Shown: positions 3,823 through 53,268 of the stretch, in pieces | Layout: each line of letters starts with the position of its first letter | Position numbering within the stretch: position 1 is the first letter of the stretch | Assembly: GCA_012840385.1 (NCBI GenBank) | Contig: DULK01000050.1 | Coordinates: 1 to 63,769 of the forward strand | DNA length: 63,769 nt | Reading direction: 5' to 3' | Origin: Syntrophomonadaceae bacterium | GTDB lineage: Bacteria; Bacillota; DSM-12270; Thermacetogeniales; Thermacetogeniaceae | The notes under the pieces: generated by a model | The model's database searches: none | Told to the model about the DNA's origin: nothing | The model's input: the letters and a program-made list of their open reading frames with translations, nothing else | Position numbers and translations under genes: made by a program

Positions 3823-5223
3823 TTACGATGCATTTATCAGGGTCGTGCGCTGGCGCTGAAACTCCGGATAGGCGGGAGTTCCATGCTCGGGAATGTCCAG
3901 GCCGGTCAATTCCTCCTCAGGCGATACCCTGATACCGAAAACCAAATCCATCACCTTGAACAGTATATAACCTAATCCGAAAGCCCATACCACCACAACC
4001 ACCACACCGATGAGCTGGGCGACCAGTTGGCCTAAGCCTCCTCCGTAGAAGAGCCCGGTGACAAAGGGCTTTTCGATTGAATAGACGCCGTAAGTACCGT
4101 CTGCAAACAATCCGACGCTTAACAGGCCCCAGATCCCGTTGAAACCGTGAACGCTCACCGCGCCCACAGGGTCATCAATGCCCCGGGATTCCAAAAAGTA
4201 TACTCCTGCTACAACAATCAGCCCTGCAATTATACCGATAACCACGGCTGCCCAGGCCTCCACCCAGGCTGCCGGTGCCGTGATGGCTACAAGGCCGCCC
4301 AGAGTACCGTTCAATGCCATCCCCAGATCCCACTTCCGGGTTTTTAGGTAAACGGTAATCAATGCCGTCAGGGCGCCTGCCGCCGCCGCGAGGTTTGTGG
4401 TTACAGCCACAACAGCGATCCTGAGGTGGTGTGCACTGAAAGTGCTGCCCGGGTTAAACCCGAACCAGCCAAACCAAAGGATAAAGGTACCCAGTGCGGC
4501 GAGAGCCATATTGTGTCCGATAATGGGGCGCGGTTTGCCGTCACGCCCGTACTTCCCGAAACGCGGTCCTAGTACCATAGCACCCGCCAGGCCCACCATA
4601 CCGCCGATGGTGTGAACAACACCCGAGCCTGCAAAGTCCAAATGCCCCAATCCGAAAGGCAGCTTGGAAAGCCAGCCGCCACCCCATACCCAGTGGGCAT
4701 AAATGGGGTAAATAAGAAGGCTGACGAAAAAGGTGTAGATCAAATAAGCAGGGAACTTAAGCCGCTCGGCGACCGCCCCGGAAACGATCGTTGCAGCCGT
4801 ACCACAGAACACCAGTTGCCAGAAGAAATCCAGGTAAACCCCAACATCATAAGAATCTCCATGCAGAAACCAGTTTCCCGTTCCGATAAATCCCGCCACA
4901 TCCTTACCCTTAAGAAATCCGTAACCTACGGCGAACAACACAAGAGAAGCCACCACAAAGTCGATCAGGTTCTTGCTGAGCAGGTTCGTGGCATTTTTCG
5001 CCCGGCAGAACCCGGTCTCCACCATTGCAAATCCCGCCTGCATGAAGAAGACCAGAAATCCGGAGACAAGCACCCACACATAGTCTACAGGGGCTTCAGC
5101 GTTTTCTTTCAAGGTTTCCGCTCCGGTGGGATCGGCCGCCAGAGCAGTCGATACAAATCCGAAAAGAAGCATTACTAAAAGAAATATATTGAAAATTACC
5201 AGAAAGGTTCGCACCTTTTTCAT
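3823..5223 (-). CDS. amt: ammonium transporter Amt
   Basis: This 466-residue Amt/MEP/Rh-family channel starts with a signal sequence ending near ALA-AD (residues 28-31) and then has eleven membrane segments. Hallmarks are DYVWVLVSGFLVFFMQAGFA at the first helix, VVHTIGG near the pore histidine, GWFGFNPGS, and VHGFNGIWG containing the second pore histidine. It imports ammonium and is inhibited by the PII protein downstream. The ATG follows GGAGGTAGAAAGT. Amt-glnK is transcribed away from the glnA/asnB block but belongs to the same nitrogen-assimilation set. Confidence 0.96.
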   Translation of the reverse strand: MKKVRTFLVIFNIFLLVMLLFGFVSTALAADPTGAETLKENAEAPVDYVWVLVSGFLVFFMQAGFAMVETGFCRAKNATNLLSKNLIDFVVASLVLFAVGYGFLKGKDVAGFIGTGNWFLHGDSYDVGVYLDFFWQLVFCGTAATIVSGAVAERLKFPAYLIYTFFVSLLIYPIYAHWVWGGGWLSKLPFGLGHLDFAGSGVVHTIGGMVGLAGAMVLGPRFGKYGRDGKPRPIIGHNMALAALGTFILWFGWFGFNPGSTFSAHHLRIAVVAVTTNLAAAAGALTALITVYLKTRKWDLGMALNGTLGGLVAITAPAAWVEAWAAVVIGIIAGLIVVAGVYFLESRGIDDPVGAVSVHGFNGIWGLLSVGLFADGTYGVYSIEKPFVTGLFYGGGLGQLVAQLIGVVVVVVWAFGLGYILFKVMDLVFGIRVSPEEELTGLDIPEHGTPAYPEFQRQRTTLINAS

Positions 5224-5493
5224 ACTTTCTACCTCCTCAAGACAAATTGCTCCTACCTTTTAACTAAAAGATTAGGCGATCCTTACCCCCTCTCTTCCGG
5301 TATTTTTCATAATGCCTACTAATTCGAGATCCCCCCTTTCATGACCAAGTTTTTGATCAAGCAAACCTCAGTTAGAAACACCATCGTTCCCTTACAGAGG
5401 TAGCCGCTACCTCCCTGTTTCTGCCGCGATGCAGTCTCCAGCTTTACAAAATTCCCATTCCGGCATGCCCGATAGCTCCATGCCGACCAACTG
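5224..5493 (-). other. amt upstream region
   Basis: No gene is visible in these 270 bases. On the minus strand they contain a 7-bp hairpin GAGGTAG/CTACCTC (5397-5413) and a short hairpin CTGC-ATCGCG-GCAG (5421-5434). The hexaloop of the latter has A at position 1 and G at position 4, like ANTAR target loops. I see no terminator overlapping it, so control of amt by this means is only a weak suggestion. Confidence 0.3.
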
Positions 5494-6516
5494 CTATATC
5501 ACAAAAAGGACGAGGTAGTAAATTGCAATCATGACCAGACCCAAAGGCATGCCGTGCCATGCCCATTCCTGGCTGCTGATTTTTAACTTGTTGGCGGAAA
5601 TAATATTAGGGATATTTCCGGGAATCAACATCCCACCGCTGATTAACAACCCCATCAAAATGGCACCTATTTGAGTGCTGTTCATTTTGTGACTGATTTC
5701 CGCCGCCGCCAGGGTCGCATTATCCAGGACTGCCGACAGCATATTGATCGGGTATAAGACCTTGCTGTCCAGATGAATTAAATATTTGTCGATCACCGGT
5801 TTAAAACCGGCGCCTAGAAACTCTAGTGCCAGAATGAAGACAAAGACCTTGGCTGACCGGAGCAATATCTCAGAATAGGATTCCGTCTCTTGATGATGAA
5901 CATCATCGTCTATTTCCGGGGTACCCCTCCTGATCATGATGCCTCCCAACAGCCCCATCGCCACTATACCGGGAATAATAAGCATCCCCATCTCTTCCGC
6001 AAGGTACCAGAAATCCTGCTCCAACCGGGAGACAACAATGGTCGAAAGCGGTTCGCCGATCGGAGTCAGGACCGCTCCCAGACCGATCGCAAAGCATGCA
6101 ACAACAACCGTGCGTATTTTGTCAGATCTTCTCATGGGTAGATTGCTGATGATTTCTACCAGAACCAGGGCGGCAACGATTGCCGTAATCATGCTTGACA
6201 TCAACCCCAGAGCAATGACCATAAGAAAAATAAATACTTTAAGGGGGATGAAACGCAATACAATATCAAGAACACGCTTGATTCGCCCCTGCAGGATTTT
6301 AAACAGGATACCGGAAAATAAGACTGCAGCTGTAATCATATACAAAAGGTGGTTTTTTAGAATTCCTACAATCAAGCTATTGTTTATAACGCCGGAACAG
6401 ATGGTTGCCAGCAATCCCATGACAAGGAGGAAGAGTTCCATATTATTCTCAACTTTCTTAACAAGGAAAGGTAATGTCAGGATTAAGAGCAGAATGATAA
6501 CCAAACCAATTAACAA
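5494..6516 (-). CDS. DUF1646 family membrane protein (putative cation transporter)
   Basis: This polytopic protein of about 340 residues matches the DUF1646 family as I know it, distant relatives of the ArsB/NhaD-like ion transporters. Duplicated re-entrant-type motifs are visible: LTPIGEPLSTIV near the middle and GNIPNIISA near the end, with about ten membrane segments. I place the start at TTG 6516 behind GGAGGGG; the open frame extends to 6609, but that upstream part is occupied by an intrinsic terminator and lacks a ribosome site. It is preceded by a long two-terminator leader (6571-6825). Substrate is likely Na+ or another cation, but this is inferred. Confidence 0.78.
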   Translation of the reverse strand: MLIGLVIILLLILTLPFLVKKVENNMELFLLVMGLLATICSGVINNSLIVGILKNHLLYMITAAVLFSGILFKILQGRIKRVLDIVLRFIPLKVFIFLMVIALGLMSSMITAIVAALVLVEIISNLPMRRSDKIRTVVVACFAIGLGAVLTPIGEPLSTIVVSRLEQDFWYLAEEMGMLIIPGIVAMGLLGGIMIRRGTPEIDDDVHHQETESYSEILLRSAKVFVFILALEFLGAGFKPVIDKYLIHLDSKVLYPINMLSAVLDNATLAAAEISHKMNSTQIGAILMGLLISGGMLIPGNIPNIISANKLKISSQEWAWHGMPLGLVMIAIYYLVLFVI

Positions 6517-6570
6517 CTCAATCCCCTCCGTCTGATAAACTCCCATCAGAGGCGCTGCGAAGCTAAGAAA

Positions 6571-6616
6571 CGAAAAACCCCTGCTTTCCGGAACCTCTGC
6601 GTTCCTCAAACAGGGG
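6571..6616 (-). terminator. second leader terminator in front of the DUF1646 gene
   Basis: On the minus strand CCCCTG (6611-6616) pairs with CAGGGG (6578-6583), with an inner stem GGAAC/GTTCC, followed by TTTTTCG. It lies between the hexaloop attenuator and the TTG start at 6516, so the leader has two consecutive intrinsic terminators. It also argues against using the upstream TTG at 6609 as start. Confidence 0.7.
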
Positions 6617-6687
6617 CATCACTGCCTGGCCGGTACCGCCGCCCTGCAGACTCCGGCGCAAATCCTTTGGCCTTCGCAACCTCTGGA

Positions 6688-6825
6688 AATGCAAAGCCCC
6701 CGAATAAATTCGGGGACTCCCTTATCCCAACTACCGGCTGCCTCGCCGTATAATAATTTATTTAAAATAATACTCGATTATTTCAGAAATACAACCCTTT
6801 TTTACAAAGTATACATGTATACTTT
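6688..6825 (-). promoter_or_regulatory. attenuator module copy A: palindrome, promoter, two hexaloop hairpins, terminator
   Basis: Reading the minus strand: a perfect 20-bp palindrome (6806-6825), a promoter with -35 TTGTAT (6789-6794), 16-nt spacer and -10 TATTAT (6767-6772), then hairpin P1 CGGC-GAGGCA-GCCG (6735-6748), a short linker, and P2 GGGAT-AAGGGA-GTCCC (6713-6728). The 3' arm of P2 is also the 5' arm of a terminator CCCCGAAT/ATTCGGGG (6697-6715) followed by CTTTGCATTT. P2 and terminator are mutually exclusive, as in ligand- or protein-controlled antitermination. Nearly the same module recurs at 8180-8324 and 9830-9974. Confidence 0.75.
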
Positions 6826-6842
6826 TAGAGAGTTGAGGTAAA

Positions 6843-7583
6843 TCACCCGGCGAGACCGGTACCCCGCAGGACCTTTTCGACATTATTGAGGAAAAGCTCC
6901 TGGAAGGGCCGTATTTTTTCCCAGCGGGCCCTGGTTTCCTGAAGAAGCCTATCCGCCGCTCCGGGCCCGCCGAAATCGACAAGTTCATCGGCATAGAGCT
7001 TTGCCCACTCCTCGATCATTTCCGGAGATACTTCCAGGTGGAACTGGAGCCCCCACGCGTAACCGCCGTAAACATGCGCCCCGTAGACGAACGCCTGGTT
7101 GAGGCACGAATCCCCCTCGGCAAGCAACAATGCCCCCTTCGGCAAGGCAAAGGTATCGCCGTGCCACTGAAAAACCGGCATCTCGGGCGGCATACCGGTA
7201 AAAAGCGGCACCAGCCGGCCTGCCGGAGTCAAACGAACCCGGTACCAGCCGATCTCCTTGACCGGGTTCGGCTCCACTTTTGCTCCCAGCGCCCGGGCGA
7301 TCAGCTGGCCGCCCAGGCAGATCCCCAGGGTGGGCAGACGCATTCTTACCGCTTCCCGTATCAACTCCTGCACCTGGAGAAGATAAGGATAAATCTCTTC
7401 CTCATAGGCTCCCATCGGCCCCCCAAGAATTACGAAGGCATTATGGTTCCCCAGACTTTCCGGCAGGGCCGCCCCCGGCCGGTCCATGCACCTGATATCC
7501 AGCCGCCAGCCTTTTTCAACAAGCACATGCTCAAGCAGCCCTGGGCCCTCACAGGCCACATGCTGCACCACTAACGCCTGCAC
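6843..7583 (-). CDS. class I glutamine amidotransferase (GMP synthase-like)
   Basis: A stand-alone class I glutamine amidotransferase of about 246 residues. The nucleophile cysteine lies in GICLGGQL, the histidine in WGLQFHLEV and the oxyanion/glycine strand in VILGGPMGAYEE, so the triad looks complete. Such single-domain proteins are usually annotated as GMP-synthase-like and may hydrolyse gamma-glutamyl compounds or supply ammonia to an unknown acceptor. I choose GTG 7583 because AAAGGAGG precedes it at the right distance; the open frame continues upstream to 7610. It sits in the nitrogen block, upstream of module A. Confidence 0.85.
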   Translation of the reverse strand: MQALVVQHVACEGPGLLEHVLVEKGWRLDIRCMDRPGAALPESLGNHNAFVILGGPMGAYEEEIYPYLLQVQELIREAVRMRLPTLGICLGGQLIARALGAKVEPNPVKEIGWYRVRLTPAGRLVPLFTGMPPEMPVFQWHGDTFALPKGALLLAEGDSCLNQAFVYGAHVYGGYAWGLQFHLEVSPEMIEEWAKLYADELVDFGGPGAADRLLQETRARWEKIRPFQELFLNNVEKVLRGTGLAG

Positions 7584-7671
7584 AGGACATCCTCCTTTCT
7601 TTCTACCCAACTCACGTTACCCGGGCCCTGCAAAGGCCGCAGAATCTTATCCGCCAGCTGCTCTTTACAGG

Positions 7672-8085
7672 TCATCCGAACCCTGCGCAGTGCTGCCTTT
7701 CAATAGAGGCGGCATTGGCTTTTAAGGCATCGAAGGCAGATACAAGGTGATCGGATTGGGTCACTGCGTCCTGTATTTGTTCTCCTACGGAAGCTACCTG
7801 GGCAGCCGTGACCTGCAGTTCGGCCGCGAAACCGAAGATGAGTTGGCGGATTTTCTCTGCACACACCGCCAGATCGCGATGCAGTCCTGTATAATGTGTG
7901 ACGTCTACCGGCTCGGCCAACTGCCCTGCGGCAAGCCGTTCCATTTCCTTGAGAAGTAACTTTATTTCTTGATTCCCCGGTGCATCCCGGGCCAGACTGT
8001 CTGTAAGAACTGCGCCGTTACTCACCCGAGCACGGCCTCTTTCGCTCAAAACGGTCTTCCCTGCCTTTCGAAACCATGTTGTCAT
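7672..8085 (-). pseudogene. truncated chemoreceptor-like protein
   Basis: The protein (about 137 residues) begins like a soluble methyl-accepting chemotaxis protein: a basic N-terminus, then a HAMP-like helix (LLLKEMERLAAGQLAEPVDV), and a coiled-coil stretch (AELQVTAAQVASVGEQIQDA) typical of the start of a signalling domain. It stops before the receptor hairpin tip, so the CheA/CheW-contacting part is missing and no continuation is visible in the next 60 bases in any frame. I read it as a degraded receptor gene, though a short expressed protein is possible. It has its own attenuator module (copy B) upstream. Confidence 0.6.
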
Positions 8086-8179
8086 CACGGTACTCCCACC
8101 ATCCTTTGGCTTTGGTGCTTCCCTGCAGGACGGCTTACAGGTGATACACTCGATTTACATCCGGCAAAACCGCCGTTTA

Positions 8180-8324
8180 AATGCAAAAGCCCCCGTCGCT
8201 GTTTTACGGGGACTTCCTCATCCCGGTCATCCGGCCGCCTCACCGGAATTATTAATTTTGCTTAATATGATACCCGAACATTTCGTAAATTCAGCCTTTT
8301 CTCGCAAAGTATCATGTATACTTT
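8180..8324 (-). promoter_or_regulatory. attenuator module copy B
   Basis: Same layout as copy A on the minus strand: interrupted palindrome (8306-8324, one base shorter than in copy A), -35 CTGAAT (8289-8294), 16-nt spacer, -10 TATCAT (8267-8272), P1 CCGGT-GAGGCG-GCCGG (8231-8246), P2 GGGAT-GAGGAA-GTCCC (8209-8224), terminator GTCCCCGT/ACGGGGGC (8189-8213) and CTTTTGCATTT. The chemoreceptor fragment starts about 95 nt downstream. Confidence 0.75.
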
Positions 8325-8443
8325 AGAAACTCCCTTACCGGTCAGAAGGGGGGTTCACCAAAAATAAAAATATAAAAAGGGGGGCTTATCCTACCGCACA
8401 TCGGCCAGCGTAAGTACACCTCAGCTACTTTCTTTCATCCCCC

Positions 8444-9655
8444 TCAACCGGGGTCTCTTTCTTCTGTTCCGGCGAACCCCTCGGAGTCAGCATCCAGGTC
8501 AATAAACAGGAAGCGGTCGGCGCCCAGAGGGTAAACGAACGTGCGAATGGGCCGGTGCGACTCCAGATCCAGGTACTCTGCTGAGAGAACCCCTTGTCTT
8601 TTCCGGGCGGCTTCGACTACATAGGGCAAAAAGTACGGCCTCCAGCACCAGTTGCGCCCGACGTACTCGTACTGGGGAAGCCAGTTACCCATGCCGTTTC
8701 TGACGTAGTTGGGCGTTTGCTGGTAGCCGTAACCGTCACAAACATAAACCCTGATCCACGATGGTGACGCAGCGCAAAGCAACCAGCAGAGACACTTATC
8801 CAGTCGGTCTGCAGCGTTCGACAGATCGTTCAACAACGCGTTCATCTGCTCAACGATCTCCAGTTCGCCGCTCCGATGTTTGACCTTTCCGCTTGCATAA
8901 CGATCTAACTCTCGCGCAACCAGAGCGGCAAAACCATCTTCATTCAGAAGTCCCGGTTGCGGAGGGGCGAAGAAATAACCTTGAAAATACCGCACGCCCG
9001 CATCAAGCCCTTCCAGAAACTGTGTCTCGGTCTCCACGCCCTCGAGCATCAACTCTAGGCCCGTTTCCCGGGCAAAAAGGCCAAGAACTTTCAGCAGAGA
9101 ACAGAAGATCGCTTTGTTGCTGGTACCTCCTGATAACGCGGTGCTGATCTTTAAAAAGTCCGGCTTGAGGATAAAAATCCTTTCAAGGTTGTTAAATTCA
9201 AGCCCGAAATCATCGAGCGCAACTTTGCAACCGGCTTCGCGGTATCTGCCGGCGAGTTCGGCCAGATCCTTTGGAGTCACAAAAGCTCCCGCCTCACTTA
9301 TTTCAATCACGATCTGGTCACCAGGTATACCGTACGTTTGTAAGTAGTCAAGGGTCGGGAGACGTTCGGCACGGCCGAGAAACGAACAAGCCCACTGCGG
9401 TTGAATATTAAGGAATACATTTGCTTTGATACCCGTCGCCGCTACCAGCTCCAGGGCTTTCTGCCGTATCAGGCGGTCGGCCTCAACCTTGGCGCCCTCG
9501 GGAACTGCGGGGTCGTGGAAAAAGGGCCCGAGGCTGTAAACGCCGTCCCGTGTCCGTACTCTACCCAGCACTTCATAACCACTTATTTTTCTCGTATCCA
9601 CCGCTATTATCGGTTGAAAGAAAGGGATTATCACATCATCATCCGACAACTTCAT
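8444..9655 (-). CDS. EAL-domain c-di-GMP phosphodiesterase with YkuI-like C-terminal sensor domain
   Basis: This 403-residue cytoplasmic protein has an N-terminal EAL domain (about 1-250) and a C-terminal domain like that of Bacillus YkuI (about 270-395; GYGYQQTPN, NWCWRPYFLPYV). The metal and substrate residues look present: glutamate 28 in a variant YEVLGR signature (EVL instead of EAL), asparagine in FLNIQP, glutamate in VIEISE, paired aspartates in LDDFG, lysine in PDFLKIS, EGVET and YFQGYFFAPP. Loop 6 after DDFG is LEFNNL rather than TGYSSL, so activity may be modest. It would hydrolyse c-di-GMP. Module C lies 175 nt upstream. Confidence 0.9.
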   Translation of the reverse strand: MKLSDDDVIIPFFQPIIAVDTRKISGYEVLGRVRTRDGVYSLGPFFHDPAVPEGAKVEADRLIRQKALELVAATGIKANVFLNIQPQWACSFLGRAERLPTLDYLQTYGIPGDQIVIEISEAGAFVTPKDLAELAGRYREAGCKVALDDFGLEFNNLERIFILKPDFLKISTALSGGTSNKAIFCSLLKVLGLFARETGLELMLEGVETETQFLEGLDAGVRYFQGYFFAPPQPGLLNEDGFAALVARELDRYASGKVKHRSGELEIVEQMNALLNDLSNAADRLDKCLCWLLCAASPSWIRVYVCDGYGYQQTPNYVRNGMGNWLPQYEYVGRNWCWRPYFLPYVVEAARKRQGVLSAEYLDLESHRPIRTFVYPLGADRFLFIDLDADSEGFAGTEERDPG

Positions 9656-9829
9656 CTCGCAACATCCCGCCTATCGTTCACGGCAAGGTCCGTACCCACA
9701 CCCTCACCGGCCTGCACTCCGGTCCGCCAATGGTTTATTATCCTCTTCCTGCGGTATACTGCCTCGCAGGTCCAGCCACCGTGCAGTTCTGGCGTCATAC
9801 CTGATCTACCATTCAAGCAAGCTGAGGAG

Positions 9830-9974
9830 AAATGCAAAGTCCCCGTACGTATTTTTACGGGGACTTCTTCATCCCGGTCATCCGGCTGCCTCACCGGAAT
9901 TATTAATTTTGCTTAATATGATACCCGAACATTTCATAAATTCAACCATTTTTCGCAAAGTATCATGTATACTT
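9830..9974 (-). promoter_or_regulatory. attenuator module copy C
   Basis: Nearly identical to copy B over about 145 bases. Minus strand: palindrome half-sites at 9957-9974, -35 TTGAAT (9940-9945), 16-nt spacer, -10 TATCAT (9918-9923), P1 CCGGT-GAGGCA-GCCGG (9882-9897), P2 GGGAT-GAAGAA-GTCCC (9860-9875), terminator GTCCCCGTA/TACGGGGAC (9839-9864) and CTTTGCATTT. It controls the EAL gene. The 175 bases between the terminator and that gene contain nothing further that I recognise. Confidence 0.78.
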
Positions 9975-10186: not shown

Positions 10187-10240
10187 CTCTGGCAACGGCG
10201 CCATGAGGTTGAAATTATGTCAACATGGCGCCTTTTATTT
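10187..10240 (+). promoter_or_regulatory. asnB leader: hexaloop antiterminator overlapping a terminator
   Basis: Hairpin CTCTGGC-AACGGC-GCCATGAG (10187-10207, one bulge) has a six-base loop with A first and G fourth. Its 3' arm is part of the 5' arm of a strong terminator, GGCGCCATG/CATGGCGCC (10197-10232) with TTTTATTTTG. The two folds exclude each other. This is the arrangement recognised by ANTAR antiterminators; the first of the usual two hairpins is not obvious here. asnB starts 27 nt later. Confidence 0.65.
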
Positions 10241-10266
10241 TGATAATACCTGAGGTGATGAACCGG

Positions 10267-12108
10267 ATGTGTGGAATAGCGGGTTGGATAGACTGGAAGA
10301 GGGATTTGAGGACACAACTGCCAGTGCTGGAGGCGATGAGCGCCACCATGGCAAGGCGCGGTCCCGACGAGGCGGGAATGTGGATCTCGCCGGAGGCCGC
10401 CCTGCTACACCGCCGCCTGATTGTGGTGGACCCGAAAGGAGGAGGACAGCCGATGGTTCGCCGGCGCGGGGATCGCTCCTACGTCATAGTCTACAACGGG
10501 GAACTTTACAACACCAATGAACTGCGAAGCGAACTGGAGGCGCAGGGTTACACCTTTCAGAGCCATTCCGACACCGAGGTGCTGCTCATTTCTTACATCG
10601 AGTGGGGGGAGCAGTGTGTTGAACGCTTCAACGGCATTTTTGCCTTCGGCATCTGGAGCGAAGCCGACCGCATTCTTTTCCTGGCCAGGGACCGCCTGGG
10701 TGTCAAGCCCCTGTTCTATGCCCGGAAAGGCAGCGCTTTCGTGTTCGGTTCCGAGTTAAAAGCCATCCTGGCCAATCCCTTGATCAAACCTGAGGTGGAC
10801 GCCGAAGGGCTGGCCGAAATCTTTGTCATGGGACCGGCCAGAACACCAGGGCACGGCGTTTTCCGCGGCATTCTGGAACTCAAGCCGGGTTACTGTCTCT
10901 CGTATGGCATCAACGGTATCCGCGAAAGGCGGTACTGGAGCTTGCAGAGCTACCCCCATGAAGATGACCTGGAAACCACCGCCGCCAAACTGCGGGAGTT
11001 GCTCCGGGATACGGTCGAGCGCCAGCTCGTGGCCGATGTGCCGGTCTGCGTGCTCCTTTCGGGCGGACTGGACTCCAGCGCCATCACCGCCTATGCCGCC
11101 CGCGCCTTTGTCCGCAACGGAATGGGGCGGCTGAAAACTTATTCCGTCGACTACAGGGAAAACAGCAAGTATTTCGAACCCAACCAGTACGAGACAAACC
11201 CGGACGCGCCGTGGATAGAAAGGGTATCAAACTTCCTGGGAACGGAACACCATAACATCGTCATTGATACCCCGGAACTGGTGGAGTCGCTTGAAACCGC
11301 GGTACATGCCCGCGACCTGCCGGGCATGACCGACGTGGACGCATCCCTCTACCTCTTCTCCCGGGAAATTAAAAAGAACGCCACAGTGGCCCTCTCCGGT
11401 GAGTCCGCCGACGAGATCTTCGGTGGCTATCCCTGGTTTTACCGGGAGGATAGCCTGAACTGCGGAACTTTTCCCTGGATCCGCATGCTGCCCGAACGGA
11501 TGCGTCTGCTGGCACCAGGAATCCGGGTCAGCATCCGGCCTGAAGAGTACCTGGCGGATCGCTATCATGAGGCACTGGCGGAAGTGCCGCGATTGCCTGG
11601 GGAAAATCCGGCAGAAGCCCGCATGCGGGAGATGCTCTACCTGAACATCACACGGTTTATGCCGATCCTCCTCGACCGCAAGGACCGCATGAGCATGTAC
11701 ACCGGGCTGGAAGTGCGCGTCCCTTACTGCGACCACCGCCTTGCCCAGTACGCCTGGAACATTCCCTGGCACATGAAGACGTCCGGCAATATGGCAAAGG
11801 GCGTCCTGCGTCTGGCTTTAAAGGACGTGCTGCCGGACGACGTGCTGGAGCGGCGGAAGAGCCCTTACCCGAAGACCCACCATCCTGCCTACCTGGAAGC
11901 GGTGCGCACCCTCGCCCTGCGAATGTTAGATGACCCGGCCTCTCCTCTTCGCCCCTTGCTCGATGTCGAAGCCTTCCGCCGGCTCGCCCTTCGAGAGCAG
12001 GATTTCGACCAGCCCTGGTTCAGCCAGCTCATGGGCTACCCCCAGCTTCTGGCATACTACGTCCAGGTCAATATCTGGCTGCGGGATTACAAGGTGTCCA
12101 TAGTCTGA
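10267..12108 (+). CDS. asnB: asparagine synthetase (glutamine-hydrolysing)
   Basis: A 613-residue class II amidotransferase that converts aspartate, glutamine and ATP to asparagine. The ATG at 10267 puts the nucleophilic cysteine at position 2 (MCGIAGW), as required after methionine removal, and is preceded by TGAGGTGATG. The glutaminase domain covers about residues 1-200. The synthetase domain follows, with the ATP-pyrophosphatase loop LLSGGLDSSAI near 260 and SGESADEIFGGY near 380. Length and order match AsnB. The leader carries an antiterminator/terminator pair, which fits nitrogen control together with glnA. Confidence 0.94.
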   Translation: MCGIAGWIDWKRDLRTQLPVLEAMSATMARRGPDEAGMWISPEAALLHRRLIVVDPKGGGQPMVRRRGDRSYVIVYNGELYNTNELRSELEAQGYTFQSHSDTEVLLISYIEWGEQCVERFNGIFAFGIWSEADRILFLARDRLGVKPLFYARKGSAFVFGSELKAILANPLIKPEVDAEGLAEIFVMGPARTPGHGVFRGILELKPGYCLSYGINGIRERRYWSLQSYPHEDDLETTAAKLRELLRDTVERQLVADVPVCVLLSGGLDSSAITAYAARAFVRNGMGRLKTYSVDYRENSKYFEPNQYETNPDAPWIERVSNFLGTEHHNIVIDTPELVESLETAVHARDLPGMTDVDASLYLFSREIKKNATVALSGESADEIFGGYPWFYREDSLNCGTFPWIRMLPERMRLLAPGIRVSIRPEEYLADRYHEALAEVPRLPGENPAEARMREMLYLNITRFMPILLDRKDRMSMYTGLEVRVPYCDHRLAQYAWNIPWHMKTSGNMAKGVLRLALKDVLPDDVLERRKSPYPKTHHPAYLEAVRTLALRMLDDPASPLRPLLDVEAFRRLALREQDFDQPWFSQLMGYPQLLAYYVQVNIWLRDYKVSIV

Positions 12109-12223
12109 CTTTCGCTCGCTGCAGATCCTGGTTGCATTTCCAATTCTGAGGGTGGCATCAAGATGGACAAGGAAGTCTATAAAGAATAAAGAAAATGTAT
12201 TATGTATTTTTGTACGGCTGTCG

Positions 12224-12341
12224 TTGACAATAAAATAGAAGCGAATATAATTAAGAGCAAAGAATAATTGTGTAGGCGCGGTTGTCTACGATCGACCAGG
12301 GTAACGGAGCCCTCCTTCACCAGGAGGGCTTTCACTTTTTT
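12224..12341 (+). promoter_or_regulatory. glnA promoter and two-hairpin attenuator
   Basis: A promoter with TTGACA (12224-12229), 16-nt spacer and TATAAT (12246-12251) is followed by P1 GTAGGC-GCGGTT-GTCTAC (12272-12289), an 8-nt linker, and P2 AGGGT-AACGGA-GCCCT (12298-12313). The 3' arm of P2 lies within the 5' arm of the terminator AGCCCTCCT/AGGAGGGCT (12308-12330), followed by TTCACTTTTTT. Loop P2 has A1 and G4, the signature of ANTAR-bound RNA; P1 has G1 and G4. The remaining 130 bases to glnA show only a ribosome site. The 115 bases between asnB and this promoter hold nothing I recognise. Confidence 0.75.
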
Positions 12342-12471: not shown

Positions 12472-13887
12472 ATGAAACCGGAGGAAGTATTGGCATTTGT
12501 AAAGGAAAAGGGGATAAAGTTCGTCGACCTGAAGTTCAACGACCTGCCGGGACTCTGGCAGCACTTCACCATCCCCGTGGAAGAGCTATGTGAGGACGTT
12601 TTCAAAGAAGGGCTCGGCTTCGACGGATCCAGCATCCGCGGGTTCCAGGAAATCCAGGAGAGCGACATGATCCTGATCCCGGACCCCAGCACGGCCATCG
12701 TCGACCCTGTTTGCAAGGCCCCCACCCTCTCCCTGATCTGCGACATTTACGACCCGATCACAAAGGAACCGTACACCCGGGATCCTCGCTACGTGGCCAA
12801 AAAGGCCGAGGCCTATCTAAAGGAGACCGGGATTGCCGATGTCAGCTACTGGGGGCCCGAAATGGAGTTCTTCATTTTCGACGACATCCGCTTTGACCAG
12901 AACGTCCATTCCGGGTATTACTTCATCGATTCTATAGAAGGGGAATGGAACACCGGCCGTGATGAAATGCCCAACCTGGGGTACAAGCCGCGCTACAAGG
13001 AGGGCTATTTCCCGGTACCGCCCCACGATTCCTTCCAGGACCTGCGCAGCGAAATGGTTTGCACCCTGCTGGAGGCGGGCATCGGCGTTGAGGTACACCA
13101 CCATGAGGTGGCCAGCGGCGGCCAGGCCGAAATCGACATGAAGTTCGACACCCTGACCAGCATGGCCGACAAGTGCATGAAGTACAAGTATATAGTAAAA
13201 AACGTGGCACGGCGCCATAATAAGGTTGTAACCTTTATGCCCAAGCCGCTGTTCCAGGATAACGGCTCCGGAATGCATACCCACCAGTCCCTGTGGAAGG
13301 GGGATACCAATTTGTTTTACGATCCCAACGGGTATGCATTGATCAGCAAGCTTGCCAAGCACTACATCGCCGGACTGCTCCATCATGCCCCTGCGCTGAT
13401 GGCCTTCTGTGCCCCGACGACCAACTCTTACAAGCGGCTGGTTCCCGGATTTGAAGCACCGGTGAACCTGGTATATTCGTCAAGAAACAGAAGTGCAGCG
13501 GTGCGCATCCCGATGTACTCGGAAAGCCCGAAGAGCAAGCGGATCGAGTTCCGGCCGCCGGACTGCACCTGCAACCCCTACCTGGCCTTTGCGGCACTGC
13601 TGCTGGCCGGCCTGGACGGCATCCAGAAAGAGATGGACCCGGGCGATCCCATCGACAAGAATATTTACGAATTGAACGGAGACGATGCAAAAGGGATCAG
13701 GACCGTCCCCTCATCACTGGAAGAGGCCATCGCCGCTTTAGAAGAGGATCACGACTTCCTGATGAAGGGCAACGTGTTCACCTCGGACCTGCTGGACGTC
13801 TGGATCCGGTACAAGAAGGAGCGGGAGATCGATGCCATCAGGCTCCGCCCGCACCCCTACGAGTTCCATCTTTACTTTGATCTATAA
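12472..13887 (+). CDS. glnA: glutamine synthetase type I
   Basis: This 471-residue enzyme makes glutamine from glutamate, ammonia and ATP as a dodecamer. Visible hallmarks are [12 protein letters not shown] near residue 47, the metal-binding [11 protein letters not shown] region, [12 protein letters not shown] (ATP/metal) and RSAAVRIP near the glutamate site. Near residue 398 it has [14 protein letters not shown], resembling the adenylylation loop of the beta subgroup, and the length also fits that subgroup. The ATG follows GGGAGGTTAAGCT. Expression is probably gated by the attenuator upstream. nadE follows after 74 nt. Confidence 0.96.
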
Positions 13888-53117: not shown

Positions 53118-53268
53118 AACCCCCTTCCGGATTCCAGAAGAGGGGCTCTTCCCTTCTCCTCTTCTTATCTCTCCGGAAATTCCGGCGGGAATTGGCACCT
53201 TCCAGGCAAAGCCCGGTGGTTGCCGAAGGTTCCTCGGGCCCTTCCCTCCCCTTCTCTTGATAAGAAGC
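53118..53268 (-). promoter_or_regulatory. SAM-I (S-box) riboswitch with terminator
   Basis: On the minus strand the aptamer (53161-53268) shows the P1 arms CTTCTTATC and GATAAGAAG, then AAGAGAAGGGGAGGGAAGGGCCC, GAGGAACCTTCGGCAACC, and GGTGCCAATTCC, all core S-box blocks. It is followed by a terminator CCCCTCTTCTGG/CCGGAAGGGG (about 53127-53152) with TTTAATTTT. High SAM would stabilise the aptamer and stop transcription before the two transsulfuration genes. Confidence 0.93.

Follow-up and report, generated by a model that had tools for sequence, protein, structure and literature searches.

Upstream of three genes in the window (the whole 63,769-nucleotide stretch analysed here, contig DULK01000050.1 of a Syntrophomonadaceae bacterium) lie three related leaders, each combining a palindromic operator, a promoter and a transcription attenuator. 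The genes encode a DUF1646 transporter-like protein, a chemoreceptor-like protein and an EAL-YkuI_C phosphodiesterase-like protein for cyclic di-GMP (c-di-GMP). We consider it highly likely that these are ANTAR-type attenuation leaders, which would be read through under nitrogen limitation with the help of a single glutamine-synthetase-linked ANTAR protein, and that a candidate DNA-binding nitrogen regulator acts at the operator. The anatomy of this nitrogen regulon with serial ANTAR-type antiterminators is confirmed, and the comparative support for it is strong. What the three leaders precede, an ion transporter, a truncated chemoreceptor and a c-di-GMP enzyme, very probably belongs to a nitrogen-starvation programme. 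An earlier note on this DNA had called the genes behind the copies unrelated, a description that does not really hold, as nitrogen status is most likely the common signal that the regulon reads.

As a plausible mechanism, the nascent RNA would by default form a terminator hairpin and transcription would stop. Under nitrogen limitation, the ANTAR protein would bind the six-base loops of two upstream hairpins, P1 and P2, and keep P2 folded, thereby blocking the terminator and allowing the polymerase to read through; at several leaders, two or three such units would have to be passed in series. A putative DNA-binding nitrogen regulator would act in addition at the AAGTAT...ATACTT operator. Stabilization of P2 is the established ANTAR mechanism, and we infer that it operates in these leaders. 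On free folding, the terminator is preferred by 10–12 kcal/mol, and a transcript ending at P2 folds both P1 and P2.

Anatomy of the leaders

All three copies are present on the minus strand (6688–6825, 8180–8324 and 9830–9974), and each contains, in order, the operator palindrome, the −35 element of a sigma-70-type promoter, a 16-nt spacer, the −10 element, P1, P2 and a terminator that overlaps the 3′ arm of P2. We refer to P1, P2 and this first terminator as module I. In the DUF1646 leader (copy 1), the operator AAGTATACATGTATACTT (6807–6824) is followed by the promoter TTGTAT-16-TATTAT (6767–6794), P1 with the loop GAGGCA (6735–6748), P2 with the loop AAGGGA (6713–6728) and terminator I (6695–6718). 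Copy 2, upstream of the chemoreceptor-like gene, carries the operator AAGTATACATGATACTT at 8307–8323, the promoter CTGAAT-16-TATCAT at 8267–8294, P1 (loop GAGGCG) at 8230–8247, P2 (loop GAGGAA) at 8209–8224 and terminator I at 8187–8215. Copy 3, upstream of the EAL-YkuI_C gene, has the same operator sequence (9958–9974), the promoter TTGAAT-16-TATCAT (9918–9945), P1 with GAGGCA (9881–9898), P2 with GAAGAA (9860–9875) and terminator I (9837–9866). The P2 hairpin has the form GGGAU-loop-GUCCC, and its 3′ arm serves as the 5′ arm of the terminator-like hairpin. The positions, order, spacer, loops and P2-terminator overlap given in the earlier note are thus borne out, while its description of the copies as near-identical fits copies 2 and 3 (92% identity) and not copy 1, which is 76% identical to copy 3.

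Such pairs of hexaloops with a terminator overlap are far more frequent here than chance expects. When the window was scanned for paired hexaloop hairpins and an overlapping terminator, five sites scored at least 42, against none in 40 dinucleotide shuffles; the scan rules were fixed after the first copies had been seen, yet they also pick up the glnA leader described below and a second module within the leader of DUF1646.

This second module extends the DUF1646 leader beyond its first description, to a further dual-hexaloop/terminator unit at 6577–6649 on the same strand. Module II consists of P1 with the loop AGGGCG (6636–6649), P2 with the loop AGTGAT (6615–6626) and terminator II overlapping P2 (6577–6617); both of its hexaloops have the canonical A at position 1 (A1) and G at position 4 (G4), so that together with the overlap it shows the features published for ANTAR targets. 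In most leaders, those of relatives included, a second dual hexaloop follows terminator I and overlaps a second terminator, with the consensus YYGC-ANNGNN-GCRG and GGY-AGYGAU-GCC, although in the window the leaders of the EAL and chemoreceptor genes carry what reads as a degenerate or truncated version. The number of units varies among relatives: in genome G006, nifH is preceded by two complete operator-promoter-module I units in tandem (L040 5603–5933) plus one module II, and the amt leader of G005 comprises one module I and two modules II. Such serial ANTAR elements are known from Desulfotomaculum acetoxidans, where 13 elements occur in six units (PMC3369931). The G005 leader (L035 13300–13700) is followed by what appear to be the last codons of a DUF1646 gene, which suggests a DUF1646 deletion between leader and amt.

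Homologous leaders, the ANTAR protein and the operator

We compared 20 genomes of the family and 41 genomes of other families. This search of related genomes, which the earlier note had proposed, found homologues before nif, amt and P-II genes: a homologous leader precedes nifH in five genomes (G002, G003, G005, G006 and G011) and ammonium transporters in eight, and further targets are P-II, a nitrogenase-component-1-like gene, amino acid permeases, a class-III aminotransferase and a glutamine amidotransferase. The targets of the window recur as well, with EAL-YkuI_C (G011) and the chemoreceptor (G002) behind homologous leaders and DUF1646 in G001 and G002 preceded by the leader through module II. 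No true nifH was found in the window's own genome or in G001; the regulon therefore persists without nitrogenase.

The bacterium's own genome encodes exactly one ANTAR protein (PF03861, 85 bits), a 209-residue receiver-ANTAR protein on another contig, encoded next to a gene for glutamine synthetase. Among solved structures, its nearest relatives are EutV and the mycobacterial putative antiterminator 1s8n, which we take to be Rv1626. Its sequence suggests a degenerate receiver, in which the usual acidic pair and the phospho-acceptor Asp are replaced; some relatives keep the Asp. Module I (E ≤ 1e-3) occurs in nine family genomes, all nine of which have the glutamine-synthetase-linked ANTAR gene, and at the same threshold it was found neither in the seven family genomes that lack ANTAR nor in the 41 genomes of other families. 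This co-occurrence supports the ANTAR protein as the possible reader, and, together with the nif, amt and P-II homologues and the absence of copies elsewhere in the own genome, it supports the earlier idea of one regulon with a shared RNA-level signal. Clostridial NitR is an example of a glnA-linked ANTAR regulator, and here too the ANTAR gene directly adjoins a glutamine synthetase gene; unlike with NitR-type regulators, a whole leader set can here be assigned to the ANTAR protein by co-occurrence.

The operator is the inverted repeat AAGTATACATG(T)ATACTT. In the 2.7-Mb genome, AAGTATN5-6ATACTT has only three sites, exactly at the three copies. The operator is also exact before glnA in G006 and G011, whose leaders are orthologous to the one in the window; it adjoins the asnB-glnA region in G010 and is weakened before the glnA of the window (operator-like site ATGTATTATGTATTTTT with three mismatches, 12195–12211, plus strand). 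As the operator lies about 55 bases ahead of the inferred transcription start, the protein acting on it may be an activator. Close variants elsewhere in the own genome precede a glutamate-synthase-like gene, an ABC transporter and a carboxylase-like gene, the genes on contigs C7 and C37 being named by sequence reading only. At G000:C36:14811–14971 (L164, L180), an ABC transporter ATPase gene is preceded by an operator variant together with a module II-like hairpin/terminator. The glutamate-synthase-like gene has two overlapping operator-like palindromes upstream of it, at G000:C7:15183–15200 (L181), and seems to have no ANTAR leader. For the operator-like sites on contigs C15 and C70, no connection with nitrogen genes is apparent.

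Loop code and competing explanations

The published ANTAR loop rule asks for A1 and G4 (PMC3369931; PMC8164766). Module I has two stems of at least 3 bp, hexanucleotide loops, a linker within 2–25 nt and an intrinsic terminator overlapping P2, as ANTAR targets do. Its loops have G4 in 28 of 28 cases, whereas position 1, where A1 is published, is A in 5 of 28 and G in 23 of 28. Among the six-base loops of module II, A1 occurs in 20 of 23 and G4 in all 23. Across both modules, homologues included, all 51 loops have G at position 4 and a purine at position 1 (25 A, 26 G). Orthologous glnA leaders swap the two purines (GCGGUU and GCUGUU versus AAGGUU and AAGGCU), and in the EutV-RNA structure G4 is the sole base-specific contact (PMC8934654). 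On the strength of these loop counts, the glnA swaps and the G4-only contact, we treat module I as ANTAR-like in action, as a variant and not a strict member of the class.

Four points weigh against an ANTAR-read nitrogen regulon. Most module I loops break the published A1 rule. The terminator tails (UUUGCAUUU) are short. Covariation support is weak, as the stems hardly vary: across 14 homologues the P2 stem of module I is identical and therefore provides no covariation evidence, P1 changes almost only from C-G to U-G, and P1 of module II shows one double change, so that the earlier statement that pairing is kept while the bases vary was too strong. Finally, in the family genome G004 a glnA-linked ANTAR protein occurs without a clear module I, and the glnA-ANTAR linkage is found by tblastn in more genomes than module I; single absences are weak evidence because some of the relatives are incomplete assemblies.

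The departure from A1 gives the strongest of the competing explanations its footing, namely that module I is read by another, non-ANTAR RNA-binding protein and that module II alone is an ANTAR site. Module I loops are mostly GARGNR, and the loops of the two modules differ consistently, each type being conserved. However, A1 and G1 are exchanged among the orthologous glnA leaders, some module I loops do carry A1 (AAGGCA, AAGGGA, AAAGGA) with G4 invariant throughout, and module I shows the same arrangement of two hairpins and an overlapping terminator, its distribution following that of the ANTAR gene. We regard a separate reader as unlikely.

A ligand-binding riboswitch, either the Na+-I class (DUF1646 motif) or a new one, is less probable still. 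The Na+-I riboswitch precedes DUF1646 genes in other bacteria (White et al. 2022, PMC9337991), and both the presence of DUF1646 among the targets and the several unlike genes behind the modules would suit such an element. Yet a scan of the window with Rfam 15 gave no family at gathering score, and relaxing the limit to E up to 10 added none of interest, which leaves the Na+-I alternative raised earlier without support; in place of an aptamer, the anatomy is that of two hexaloop hairpins with no conserved junction or pocket beyond them, and the conserved loop base is the one that ANTAR contacts.

It is hardly credible that the leaders are fixed attenuators without a regulator, whose hairpins merely set basal expression. 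The weak terminator tails fit that notion, whereas the 5′ arm GGGAU of P2, which lies outside the terminator, is invariant in the 14 homologues, and the loops keep the purine at position 1 and G4; a plain terminator would require neither. The chance that the copies belong to a mobile or repetitive element that inserted regardless of genes, which had been named as the finding that would count against a regulon, is negligible: copies 2 and 3 are indeed closely alike over about 145 bp, but the genome-wide search of the 2.70-Mb own genome found no copy beyond these three, each sits just upstream of a gene on the same strand, and relatives carry the leaders before orthologous nitrogen genes.

Nitrogen neighbourhood and relation to known systems

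The window is a nitrogen neighbourhood with genes for Amt, DUF1646, glutamine amidotransferase, asparagine synthase and glutamine synthetase. The ammonium transporter (Amt) gene (3823–5223, minus strand) has a module II-type antiterminator leader at 5365–5434 on the same strand (model R2, E 2.7e-11), with the P1 loop AUCGCG, a seven-nucleotide P2 loop (AGCGGCU) and a weak overlapping terminator. The DUF1646 transporter-like gene (5494–6609, minus strand; PF07854, E 2.7e-120) has a start codon that is not fixed, and the listed open reading frame overlaps the leader. Next in coordinate order come the glutamine amidotransferase gene (6843–7610) and a 138-residue chemoreceptor remnant (7672–8088, minus strand), which shares 80% identity with the N-terminal half of a 278-residue MCP in G002. 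That soluble chemoreceptor is complete in the sister genome, with the MCPsignal domain that is absent from the window protein; the window gene is therefore a truncated form. The EAL-YkuI_C gene lies at 8444–9655 on the minus strand.

Beyond it lie asparagine synthase (asnB, 10225–12108) and, on the plus strand, type I glutamine synthetase (glnA, 12472–13887). The glnA leader (12272–12332, plus strand) has P1 GUAGGC-GCGGUU-GUCUAC, P2 AGGGU-AACGGA-GCCCU and an overlapping terminator. At 10190–10232 (plus strand), a single hexaloop hairpin, UGGC-AACGGC-GCCA (A1, G4), overlaps a terminator in the leader of asnB, which has no clear P1; this leader was not accepted as an ANTAR dual hairpin, only one such hexaloop being seen, and asnB is kept as a possible target. 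An ordinary S-adenosylmethionine riboswitch lies at 53162–53266 (minus strand).

ANTAR control of nitrogen genes is already known, with ANTAR RNAs described before P-II, amt, nif and gln genes (Ramesh 2012, PMC3369931). With the ANTAR dual-hexaloop antiterminators (EutV/eutP, NasR/nasF, AmiR/amiE, and the nitrogen regulons of D. acetoxidans and Pelobacter; PMC3369931), the present leaders share two short hairpins with six-base loops, G4, a short linker, a P2 that is mutually exclusive with the terminator, several units per transcription unit, and amt, P-II, nif and gln targets. Unlike in those systems, position 1 can be either purine, with G prevailing in module I; there are two unit types in the fixed order I then II and a common DNA operator; and the targets include EAL-YkuI_C, the chemoreceptor, DUF1646 and the glutamine amidotransferase. 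What is new is the relaxation at loop position 1, the existence of two types of unit, the operator, and the presence of signalling genes and DUF1646 among the targets. More tentatively, the glutamine-synthetase-linked ANTAR protein with its degenerate receiver might be a phosphorylation-free nitrogen sensor that reads a relaxed loop code (purine at position 1, G4), with two or three serial antiterminators before the genes for nitrogenase and ammonium uptake, with chemotaxis and c-di-GMP genes in the same regulon and with the DNA operator as a further gate; this extended picture is possible, and we would not yet favour it.

The published A1/G4 rule is perhaps too strict, in which case searches based on A1 could have missed sites like these. 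With the ANTAR gene beside that for glutamine synthetase, this enzyme and the control of nif by ANTAR may be linked. Three puzzling leaders thus become legible as a nitrogen regulon in a bacterial family that has been little studied, and DUF1646, the EAL-YkuI_C enzyme and the soluble chemoreceptor gain a physiological setting.

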